Below, piece after piece: positions 519 through 62,143 of a stretch of DNA of 64,000 nucleotides; positions within the stretch are counted from its first letter, which is position 1, and each line of letters opens with the position of its first letter. This stretch comes from Blastococcus sp. DSM 46786 (GTDB lineage Bacteria; Actinomycetota; Actinomycetes; Mycobacteriales; Geodermatophilaceae): contig NZ_FOAO01000008.1 in assembly GCF_900109665.1 (NCBI RefSeq), positions 62,001 through 126,000 on the forward strand, read 5' to 3'. Made by a program: the position numbers and the translations under genes. The notes under the pieces are model-generated. The model did no database searches, was not told the origin of the DNA, and saw only the letters and a list, made by a program, of their open reading frames with translations.

Positions 519-521
519 GAA

Positions 522-584
522 AGGACCTCGCTGCCCCCACCACTCGCAGGCTCGCGGCGGGTCCCTGCAGCGAGGCCGTTCCAG
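522..584 (-). repeat. Dispersed palindromic element, copy A
   Basis: A structured element of about 63 bases begins 4 bases after the tkt stop. Its outer arms GGACCTCGCTGC (from 523) and GCAGCGAGGCC (567-577) pair. The reverse complement aligns base for base with copies at 12890-12955 and 50397-50458, sharing CTGCAGGG and CCGCGAGC-N-TGCGAG in the interior. It lies between tkt and tal, so it may be an intercistronic stabiliser or a partial terminator. Confidence 0.75.
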
Positions 585-12780: not shown

Positions 12781-12818
12781 AGGGTCCTGGCTCGGCGTCG
12801 ACGGTGAGCCAGGACCCT
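12781..12818 (-). terminator. Hairpin after whiA with repeated arm
   Basis: AGGGTCCTGGCTC (12781-12793) pairs perfectly with GAGCCAGGACCCT (12806-12818). Because the second arm is duplicated just beyond it, two alternative full-length hairpins and a third shorter one can form. It is placed to terminate the whiA transcript before gap. Confidence 0.5.
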
Positions 12819-12855
12819 CCCCGGTGAGCCAGGACCCTCCCCGGTGAGCCAGGAC
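12803..12855. repeat. Tandem repeat of a 20-base hairpin arm
   Basis: The unit GGTGAGCCAGGACCCTCCCC occurs at 12803-12822 and again without change at 12823-12842. A partial third unit is at 12843-12855. Exact identity suggests a recent slippage expansion. Confidence 0.9.
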
Positions 12856-12889
12856 GCCCGGCCGCCGGCGCCGGCACCGGGGTGACGTG

Positions 12890-12955
12890 CTGGAACAGCC
12901 CCGCTGCAGGGCCCCACCGCGAGCGTGCGAGGCGGTTCGGGGCAGCGGGGTCCTC
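12890..12955 (+). repeat. Dispersed palindromic element, copy B
   Basis: This copy abuts the whiA stop. Its outer arms are CCCCGCTGC and GCAGCGGGG. It shares CTGGAAC and CTGCAGGG with the reverse complement of copy A, and CCGCGAGC-N-TGCGAG with both other copies. Relative to the upstream gene it has the same orientation as copy A. Confidence 0.75.
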
Positions 12956-13936
12956 TTACTGCGCCAGCATGTCGTCGGTGACGACGGACTCCGTGTCCGG
13001 GATGCCGAGGTCCTTGGCGCGCTTGTCCGCCATGGCCAGCAGCCGCCGGATGCGGCCGGCGACCGCGTCCTTGGTCATCGGGGGGTCGGCCCGCTGGCCG
13101 AGCTCCTCCAGCGAGGCCTGCCCGAACTCGAGGCGGAGCCGGCCGGCGACCAGAAGGTGCTCGGGGGCGTCCTCGCCGAGGATCTCCAGCGCCCGCTCCA
13201 CCCGCGCGCTCGCGGCGACGGCGGCCCGCGCGGACCGGCGCAGGTTGGCGTCGTCGAAGTTCGCCAGGCGGTTGGCGGTGGCCCGCACCTCGCGACGCAT
13301 CCGCCGCTCCTCCCAGGCCAGCACCGCGTCGTGCGCGCCCATCCGCGTGAGCAGCGCGCTGATCGCGTCGCCGTCCCGCACGACCACCCGATCGGCGCCG
13401 CGCACCTCGCGGGCCTTGGCGGCGATGCCCAGCCGGCGGGCCGCGCCGACGAGCGCCATGGCGGCCTCCGGGCCGGGGCAGGTGACCTCCAGCGAGGACG
13501 ACCGGCCGGGCTCGGTCAGCGAGCCGTGGGCGAGGAAGGCACCCCGCCAGGCCGCCTCGGCGTCGTTGATGCTGCCGGAGACGACGGCCGGCGGGAGGCC
13601 GCGCACCGGGCGGCCGCGCTGGTCGACCAGGCCGGTCTGGCGGGCCAGCCCCTCCCCGTGCTTGGCGATGCGGACGAGGTAGCGCACGCCCCGGCGGATG
13701 TTCCCGCCCGCGAGCACGCTCACGCCGCTGGTGTAGCCGTAGACCTCGCTGATGTCCCGGCGCAGCCGTCGGGCGACCGAGCCGGTGTCCAGCTCGGCCT
13801 CGATGACCACGCGGCCACCCACGATGTGCAGGCCGCCGGAGAAGCGCAGCAGCGCGGTCACCTCGGCCTTGCGCTCGGAGGTCTTCGTGCACTCCACCCG
13901 GGAGAGCTCGTCCTTCACCATGGCGGTCATCGCCAT
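12956..13936 (-). CDS. whiA: DNA-binding protein WhiA
   Basis: WhiA is a transcription regulator required for sporulation septation in Streptomyces and is conserved widely in Gram-positive bacteria. The 326 residues start [14 protein letters not shown], the family N-terminus. They continue with a LAGLIDADG-type fold ([16 protein letters not shown]) and end in a helix-turn-helix region ([25 protein letters not shown]). I chose ATG 13936 because that N-terminus matches the family. It is last in the conserved minus-strand order uvrC-rapZ-yvcK-whiA. Copy B of the palindromic element lies directly after its stop. Confidence 0.95.
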
Positions 13937-49312: not shown

Positions 49313-50383
49313 ATGGACCTCCCGCTGCAGCCGCCGGTGAAGCCGATGCTCGCGAAGGCCGCCACGAAGGTGCCGGTCGGCGACGAGTGGTTCTACGAGC
49401 CGAAGTGGGACGGGTTCCGCTGCATCGTCTTCCGCGACGGCGACGAGGTCGAGCTCGGCAGCCGCAACGAGCGCCCGCTGACCCGCTACTTCCCCGAGGT
49501 CGTCGCCGCGGTGAAGGAGAACCTGCCCGAGCGGTGCGTCGTCGACGGCGAGATCGTCGTGCCGCGGGACGACCGGCTGCACTTCGAGGCGCTGCTGCAG
49601 CGGATCCACCCGGCGGAGTCACGCGTCACGCTGCTCGCCGAGCAGACCCCGGCCTCGTTCGTCGCCTTCGACCTGCTCGCCCTGGGTGACGAGTCGCTGC
49701 TGGAGACGCCGTTCGCGCAGCGGCGGGCCCGGCTCGAAGCCGCCCTGTCCGGCGCCCGCCCCCCGGTGCACCTCACCAGCGTCACCCGGGACGCCGCCAC
49801 CGCCGAGCGCTGGTTCGAGACGTTCGAGGGCGCCGGCCTCGACGGCGTCGTCGCCAAGTCCGCCGACCTGCCCTACGGCCCCGACCAGCGGCTGATGACC
49901 AAGGTCAAGCACGTGCGGACGGCGGACTGCGTGGTCGCCGGCTTCCGCTGGCACAAGAGCGGGCCGATCGTCGGCTCGTTGCTGCTCGGCCTGTACGACG
50001 GCGAGGAGCTGCAGCACATCGGCGTCGCGGCGTCCTTCCCGATGGCGCGCCGGGCCGAGCTGGTCGAGGAGCTCGCGCCGTACCGCGCCGAGGCGCTCGA
50101 CGGCCACCCCTGGCAGGACTGGGCCAACGCCCAGGTGCAGGCCGAGGGCGAGCAGCGGATGCCCGGCGCGGTGAGCCGGTGGAACGCCAAGAAGGACCTC
50201 TCGTGGGTGCCGCTGCGCCCCGAGCTGGTCGTCGAGATCAAGTACGACCAGCTCGAGGGGCGTCGACTTCGTCACACCGGGCAGTTCCTCCGCTGGCGCC
50301 CCGACCGGGACCCCCGCAGCTGCACGTACGACCAGCTCGACGTGCCGGTCCGCTACGACCTGGCCGAGGTCCTGGAGGGCTGA
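49313..50383 (+). CDS. ligC: ATP-dependent DNA ligase, LigC-type
   Basis: This 356-residue ligase seals DNA nicks using ATP. The adenylated lysine is Lys31 in EPKWDGFR. The other nucleotidyltransferase motifs are SRNERPL, VVDGEIVV, FVAFDLLALG, DGVVAKS and KVKHVRT, followed by an OB-fold (GSLLLGLYDGEELQHIGVAAS). It lacks polymerase and nuclease domains, so it is LigC-type rather than LigD. In mycobacteria LigC acts with Prim-PolC in short-gap repair, and a Prim-PolC-like gene lies 1.7 kb downstream on the same strand. Copy C of the palindromic element follows its stop. Confidence 0.93.
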   Translation: MDLPLQPPVKPMLAKAATKVPVGDEWFYEPKWDGFRCIVFRDGDEVELGSRNERPLTRYFPEVVAAVKENLPERCVVDGEIVVPRDDRLHFEALLQRIHPAESRVTLLAEQTPASFVAFDLLALGDESLLETPFAQRRARLEAALSGARPPVHLTSVTRDAATAERWFETFEGAGLDGVVAKSADLPYGPDQRLMTKVKHVRTADCVVAGFRWHKSGPIVGSLLLGLYDGEELQHIGVAASFPMARRAELVEELAPYRAEALDGHPWQDWANAQVQAEGEQRMPGAVSRWNAKKDLSWVPLRPELVVEIKYDQLEGRRLRHTGQFLRWRPDRDPRSCTYDQLDVPVRYDLAEVLEG

Positions 50384-50396
50384 GACGGTGCGCCGC

Positions 50397-50458
50397 GGAC
50401 GGCCTTCCTGCAGGGTCCCGCCGCGAGCTTGCGAGCGGTGGGGGGCAGGAAGGTCCCT
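50397..50458 (+). repeat. Dispersed palindromic element, copy C
   Basis: The arms GGCCTTCCTGC (50401-50411) and GCAGGAAGGTCC (50445-50456) pair. The interior CTGCAGGG and CCGCGAGC-N-TGCGAG matches copies A and B. It starts 14 bases after the ligC stop. Relative to the upstream gene it is inverted compared with copies A and B. Its 3' edge touches the -10 box of the next gene. Confidence 0.75.
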
Positions 50459-50463
50459 ATCCT
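50458..50463 (+). promoter_or_regulatory. -10 box of the TAP-like gene
   Basis: TATCCT ends 7 bases before ATG 50471, with no Shine-Dalgarno sequence. It supports the ATG over an in-frame GTG at 50465 and a leaderless mRNA. Confidence 0.5.
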
Positions 50464-61897: not shown

Positions 61898-62143
61898 TCA
61901 GCCGGCCAACCGGCGCGCGGCCGCGCCGAGGTGGTGCGCCCGCAGCGCACCCGGCTGCCCGATCCGCCGCGTCAGCTGGGCGGCGGCCACCGCGGCGCGG
62001 AGCGCGTCGGCGGACTCGGCGAGGCGGTCGGCGAGGAGCTGGTCCAGGTCGGCGTCGTGCAGGTCCTCCACGTCGCGCAGGAAGACGGCACCGGCCGGGA
62101 CGGCGGTGCGGGCGGGCACGGGCGAGGCGACGAGCTGCTGCAT
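61898..62143 (-). CDS. Small soluble protein, unknown function
   Basis: No family is recognised in these 81 residues. The protein starts MQQLVASPVPARTAV and is Ala/Leu-rich with a predicted helical second half (DLDQLLADRLAESADALRAAVAAAQLTRRIG). It has no membrane segment. The ATG at 62143 has AGGAGG at ideal spacing and a hairpin follows the stop, both supporting a real gene. It lies between the PilZ gene and a divergent small membrane protein. Confidence 0.55.
   Translation of the reverse strand: MQQLVASPVPARTAVPAGAVFLRDVEDLHDADLDQLLADRLAESADALRAAVAAAQLTRRIGQPGALRAHHLGAAARRLAG

Follow-up and report, generated by a model that had tools for sequence, protein, structure and literature searches.

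Three short palindromes of similar build lie behind the tkt, whiA and ligC genes in a stretch of 64,000 nt from the genome of Blastococcus sp. DSM 46786 (positions 62,001 to 126,000 of contig NZ_FOAO01000008.1; this whole stretch is called the window here), which raises the question of what such a hairpin is and how it came to lie at gene ends. A sequence-only reading of the window had offered a REP-like mobile palindrome, a terminator or an mRNA stabiliser.

Three copies in the window and the structure of the element

All three copies were found beside stop codons where that reading had placed them, as judged from the stop coordinates, from the Pfam matches of the flanking genes (transketolase C-terminus and transaldolase for copy 1, WhiA and GAPDH for copy 2, ATP-dependent DNA ligase and alpha/beta hydrolase for copy 3) and from a covariance model built from 27 copies, which matched these three places only in the window (E≤1; Table 1). 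Copy 1 begins directly after the tkt stop (516-518), copy 2 runs up to the complement of the whiA stop, and the copy 3 start given by the sequence-only reading is 13 nt beyond the ligC stop (50381-50383). The claimed orientations also held, with copies 1 and 2 opposite to the preceding gene and copy 3 the same way round. The extents needed correction, as an extra G after the copy 2 loop had been missed and so had a 5′ leader, which belongs to the element and is partial in copy 1 and full in copy 2. The loop 14-mer CGCGAGCNTGCGAG occurs as an exact match 32 times in the 4.59-Mb genome compared to once for a reversed control pattern; with 2 mismatches allowed, its 8 occurrences in the window, where 15 would be expected, show no enrichment. 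Single copies fold modestly better than their shuffles (z -0.4 to -2.7), and a search for copy 3 on plasmids or phages gave no match. At the place of the putative -10 box beside copy 3, relatives without the element carry TAGGCT-like boxes (23 ligC loci, by eye).

Table 1. Positions of the three copies, their parts and an adjoining promoter box, numbered from the first nucleotide of the window
Feature	Position	Strand	Evidence and context
Copy 1 hairpin core	523..576	-	R1 model, 77.3 bits, E 3.4e-14; behind tkt, opposite to gene
Copy 1 pyrimidine tail	519..522	-	TTTC on element strand; separates hairpin from tkt stop
Copy 1 truncated 5′ leader CTGGAACG	577..584	-	Leader comparison
Copy 2 hairpin core	12898..12953	+	R1 model, 71.9 bits, E 5.4e-13; behind whiA, opposite to gene
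Copy 2 5′ leader GTGACGTGCTGGAAC	12882..12896	+	Leader comparison
Copy 2 tail	12954..12955	+	Reaches whiA stop complement (12956-12958)
Copy 3 hairpin core	50402..50456	+	R1 model, 83.1 bits, E 1.8e-15; behind ligC, same strand
Copy 3 conserved loop CGCGAGCTTGCGAG	50422..50435	+	Loop motif count, 27-copy alignment
Putative -10 box TATCCT of next gene	50458..50463	+	Adjoins 3′ end of copy 3

Alignment of the 27 copies gave a hairpin of 55-60 bp built in two tiers, in which an outer stem of variable yet paired sequence is followed by a purine-rich internal loop (AGGGG/GG-type), an inner stem and a GCGAGC-NT-GCGAG loop. Since the rows had been picked by the loop motif, the invariance of the loop is partly by construction, and loop variants such as GCGAGCGGAGCGAG were later recovered by the model. 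Pairing was kept in 95.9% of cells, in a structure derived from the very alignment on which it was scored, and was matched by 0 of 500 shuffles; both sides had changed in 10 of 18 pairs and sliding the stem partner destroyed the signal. The compensatory stem changes that the sequence-only reading had noted are real and, across the family, far beyond chance. Their use as an argument for selection on RNA structure is weakened, because orthologous sites in related species carry different whole hairpins: at C23:202659 (contig C23) the outer arms in four species are CCCCGCCC, CCCCGTCC, CCCCCTGC and CCCTTCGC, in every case together with the complementary arm. To judge from such comparisons, stem compensation can stem from whole-hairpin exchange, independent insertion or hairpin-templated correction, and so compensatory changes alone would not prove selection on an RNA, a warning that extends to dispersed hairpins at large.

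The two ends of the element differ, as seen in a set of 57 copies (35 copies from an unbiased sample, described below, and 22 of the best-scoring). The 3′ end is constant, with GGTCC followed by a short T/C tail whose first position is T in 52 of the 57. The 5′ leader GGTGACGTGCTGGAACG was complete or nearly so in 11 and partial, scoring above the best shuffled one, in 14, and the other 32 did not exceed that score, with cut-offs for these classes that were chosen by the analyst. Within 504 kb of the genome, 25 sequences matched the leader with no more than 2 mismatches; 22 of them are part of the element or of its arrays, and the other 3, each with two mismatches, lie outside it. One such array (C23:373954-374270, locus L107) is formed by tandem 45-bp units of leader and 5′ half-hairpin, followed by a full hairpin.

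Distribution and placement at stop codons

The sequence-only reading had proposed a search of this genome and of related Geodermatophilaceae for further copies, and the covariance model found them, many just past stop codons. In the genome of the window (G000) 140 matches were obtained at E≤0.1 from 150 scored candidates, a number that includes array fragments and 5 matches above E 0.001. Sampling 504 kb regardless of copies (C23 1-400000 and C40 42001-146000) gave 35 copies at E<1e-3, after 8 of 43 matches with E≥0.01 had been dropped, and as some of these 35 are absent from the list of 140 the genome total is probably higher than 140. Within the genus the element was present in 22 of 23 genomes, in numbers of matches that included 0 (G022), 2 (G010), 4 (G021), 12, 23, 36, 47 and 48 and rose to at least 122. 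The genus is Blastococcus by its named neighbours, WhiA being 100% identical to that of Blastococcus sp. MG754426. Matches were found in 102 of 112 Geodermatophilaceae genomes, the ten without being G022 and nine genomes from three genera, in 0 of 16 genomes from other families of the order and in 4 of 394 from a sample of the class; weak copies may be missed in these other genomes as fewer candidates were scored for each (43 in the family search, 12 in the class search) and the filters were stricter. Two of those four are from the same genus and two are from one other actinomycete family, with a single match each, which shares the loop and has GTCCC/GGGAC as its stem. These look-alikes lie at about 1507-1560 of locus L274 and about 1470-1565 of L275, both with the GAGCCTGCGA loop, and L275 appears by eye to hold two hairpins in tandem.

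Other repeats were noticed in the same genomes. A tandem GGTGAGCCAGGACCCTCCCC repeat lies at 12798-12855 of the window, upstream of the gene gap, a similar tandem is found at the same site in G011, and GGTGAGCCAGGACC with up to 2 mismatches occurs 33 times in 504 kb of the genome, so that these may possibly form a second repeat family. In the copy-poor G022 (L135) and G010 (L138) the palindrome behind whiA is another one, GATCGCCGATCTCGCACG ... CGTGCGAGATCGGCGATCTCG; allowing up to 2 mismatches, GTGCGAGATCGGCGATCTCG was counted 3 times in 220 kb of G022 and twice in 60 kb of G010. In a search of 220 kb of G022 for a repeat family that might take the place of the element, the commonest 16-mers (6 and 5 copies) were found to fall mostly in one 10-kb cluster, and 14-mers present at five or more separate places per 220 kb numbered 2 in G022 and 22, many of them coding-like, in G000. 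Another stretch, at 17290-17416 of L099, has several matching sites in both G003 and G015.

Placement of the element was judged against gene positions from a codon-usage gene finder rather than an annotation. Among the 35 unbiased copies the flanking gene pairs were unidirectional or convergent in 31, and 2 cores overlapped a predicted gene. In 22 of the 35 the 3′ (TCC) edge lay -2 to 6 nt from a stop codon on the opposite strand, where 2.8% would be expected if insertion points were drawn at random from intergenic DNA (P 7e-26), while the 5′ edge was equally near a same-strand stop in 4 (P 0.02). This docking was replicated in 22 of 30 copies from G014, G015, G003, G017 and G011 (a set without five weak matches of E 0.0012 to 0.92, namely L132, the second of L147, the second of L149, L141 and the third of L258) and in a genome of another genus, G059, where 24 of the best 30 of 149 copies were docked and 6 of the same 30 had the 5′ edge near a same-strand stop. 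Docking persists where the next gene is hundreds of bases off. At -2 to 6 nt past the stop there were 22 elements (2,345 free positions at 0-6), compared to 2 elements at 7-60 nt despite 12,726 free positions, 5 times more.

TAG and TAA are over-represented among the stops of docked copies (9 of 24, compared to 66 of 477). By hand count, 14 of 15 docked TGA stops are preceded by C, as are 17 of 19 in G059; the overall figure, to which both were compared, is 256 of 411 (P 0.014 and 0.016, respectively). Several empty sites already carry TCAG or CTAG at the junction, and these sequences together hint at a CTGA/CTAG-like target. A target made up of the tetranucleotide alone was considered and is not supported by per-site rates: CTGA/CTAG stops and other stops carry elements at rates that do not differ significantly (15 of 277 and 7 of 200; P 0.38), and as CTGA/CTAG away from stops has 2 elements in 355 sites, such a tetranucleotide is insufficient by itself for docking. 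Eleven of the 35 copies are neither docked nor adjoin TCAG/CTAG.

Evidence for mobility, proposed mechanism and rival explanations

Comparison of orthologous sites showed differences in presence and orientation between species. Of 23 orthologous ligC loci, inspected by eye, those of G000, G014, G011 and G019 carry the element; G015 has it in degenerate form, in G017 it is reversed and the remaining genomes lack it. The copies of G011 and G017 were also scored by the model. The tkt-tal site is empty in G017, G011 and G022 and by eye holds an apparent remnant in G021. For copies of G000 in C23 155-370 kb, 12 of 16 could be anchored in G003, with 7 sites empty, 4 filled and 1 unresolved. Opposite orientations at one site were seen at ligC (G017 against G000) and at C23:199653 (G015 against G000). 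At the C23:209740 site of G014, one element has another nested in its loop. Contig C12 of G000 bears a pair of similar arrangement, and this junction pattern was found in 2 of 23 genus genomes, once each. Similarity between left and right flanks equalled that of permuted pairs (7.8 and 7.6; 57 copies) and so there is no target site duplication as a rule, the exceptions being a 22-bp imperfect repeat at C23:280375 and an array in which the leader is repeated. Because the spacers that flank the element for the most part cannot be aligned across species, few junctions are known exactly, and any one empty site may by this comparison be a deletion, but sites without the element together with opposite orientations at a single site suggest new insertion. 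Of what the sequence-only reading proposed, a dispersed REP-like palindrome is supported, by the many further copies past stops and by covariation far above shuffles.

That reading had also suggested looking for a linked RAYT-type transposase, and this was not borne out. The Y1 transposase profile PF01797 had matches in none of the 23 genus genomes and none of the 112 family genomes but in 5 of 14 controls, and profile searches with Y1_Tnp and RVT_1 found no mobilising enzyme. Retro-insertion by a reverse transcriptase was considered and rejected, RVT_1 being present in 4 of 23 genus genomes that include the copy-poor G021 and not the copy-rich G017. A GTAG tag within 8 nt of the right end on the reverse strand, the strand expected, was seen in just 8 of 57 and 3 of 30 copies, on the forward strand of that end in 1 of 57 and at the left end in none, and a CGTC tag, whichever edge and strand is taken, in no more than 2 of 57 and 6 of 30. 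Most close pairs are direct, as are both of those among the 35 unbiased copies (L089, L097); the list of 140 matches has one inverted pair (C4:211012 on the plus and C4:211093 on the minus strand), the latter weak (E 0.004). Mobilisation of a REP by RAYT, as in gamma-Proteobacteria, is thus largely refuted and we consider it very improbable, even though a high-copy palindrome that lies 3′ of genes and shows no general target duplication would fit it.

We consider it probable, from comparison of genomes, that the element is a non-autonomous mobile DNA hairpin, REP-like and belonging to the Geodermatophilaceae, with two single look-alikes in one other sampled family. Besides the dispersal, site differences and kept pairing described above, its fixed 3′ end (TCC and pyrimidine tail), variable 5′ leader and flush placement at stops, mostly opposite to the gene, were all observed by comparison. 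An enzyme acting in trans would recognise the folded strand that bears the GCGAGC-NT-GCGAG loop and would join the TCC end beside a CTGA/CTAG-like sequence, most often a stop codon, and copies would survive chiefly at gene 3′ ends, where harm is small. More tentatively, the copies may possibly make up a family of orphan elements that move as hairpins of single-strand DNA, with a non-Y1 mover new to REP-like elements and insertion aimed at the stop-codon boundary.

The hairpins could instead owe their spread mainly to recombination or template switching among those already present, with no transposase and with stem compensation from hairpin-templated repair, which would suit the tandem half-hairpin arrays and the different subtypes that C23:202659 holds in four species with pairing largely kept; the empty sites and reversed copies, which suggest new insertion, make this unlikely. 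A family of intrinsic, perhaps bidirectional terminators selected at gene ends is slightly less likely again. The hairpin is GC-rich, it is placed at gene 3′ ends with few divergent sites (4 of 35), and T is commoner in the 8 nt on its forward side (3.3, compared to 1.4 on the other side), so that forward copies, with hairpin and TCCTTYT, could end transcription. However, the common orientation points away from the preceding gene (20 of 35 copies have codirectional flanks and lie opposite to them), 5 of 24 docked copies sit 21-31 nt ahead of a codirectional next gene, a terminator would not need the conserved loop, and G022, G010 and G021 have almost none. At C23:204272 (L099 4272-4430) the element is open in frame between the overlapping cofD and cofE genes, likely forming an N-terminal extension of CofE (F420 ligase) if the predicted start codons are right, and this makes full termination there unlikely; G003 lacks the element at cofD-cofE and G000 is 60 nt longer. 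Opposite copies would then probably be read through in some operons at least.

Improbable too is a host-adaptive mRNA 3′-end stabiliser or protein-binding site selected flush with stops: docking far tighter than free space predicts would fit it, but some relatives have few or no copies, copies are gained or lost between species, and the common orientation puts the pyrimidine strand, not the GA-rich loop, in the transcript. The terminator or stabiliser role that the sequence-only reading had allowed is accordingly not established, and one operon or more probably requires read-through. Given the mostly opposite orientation, some read-through and copy-poor relatives, we read the element primarily as a passenger that is mobile and may have secondary effects.

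Comparison with known repeat systems

Being a high-copy intergenic palindrome that lies mainly behind genes, the element is a REP in the broad sense, while the target site duplication of a classical MITE is not the rule among the 57 copies compared. REP-like elements are usually explained by RAYT and here a large family exists in bacteria in which RAYT was not found; the sharp insertion geometry, together with copy-rich, copy-poor and empty genomes in one genus, makes both the mover and the cause of docking directly testable. The MIRUs of mycobacteria are likewise actinobacterial intergenic repeats, forming tandem arrays and lying at stop codons in operons, but we know of no covarying hairpin in them and by description they are set apart from the present element.

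No Rfam family matched the window at gathering threshold, nor the surroundings of copy 3 at E≤5. Titles and abstract openings in the open-access literature on repeats or REPs in Geodermatophilaceae, Blastococcus or Geodermatophilus do not describe the element, and the matching passages of PMC9686282 concern CRISPR and unrelated uses only. No word that starts with Actinobacter, Geodermatophilus or Frankia is present in the main text of a study of REPs (Di Nocera et al. 2013, PMC3733652), which does name M. tuberculosis among REP-like cases.

That study places REPs close to gene 3′ ends, with conv-REPs less than 20 bp from both 3′ ends, so that closeness to stops is a property shared with them; it adds that REP termini can provide TAG stops and that some REPs lie inside ORFs. 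As described there, the CGTC-tagged REPs are also high-copy palindromes without a dedicated transposase, but their stems are 8-9 bp with loops of 4-5 nt, and CGTC is absent here. The rickettsial palindromic elements, named in the same source, resemble the cofE copy as in-frame palindromes in a coding region, whereas nearly all copies here are intergenic, a likeness drawn by description and not by sequence. To the GTAG REP/RAYT system in the same account the element is alike as an intergenic high-copy palindrome behind genes and near stops, and unlike in having no GTAG tag and no Y1 transposase in 112 genomes, in being a two-tier hairpin of 55-60 bp where REPs have 20-40 bp, and in forming direct half-hairpin arrays where REPs form mainly inverted dimers. 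The element is a new REP-like variant.
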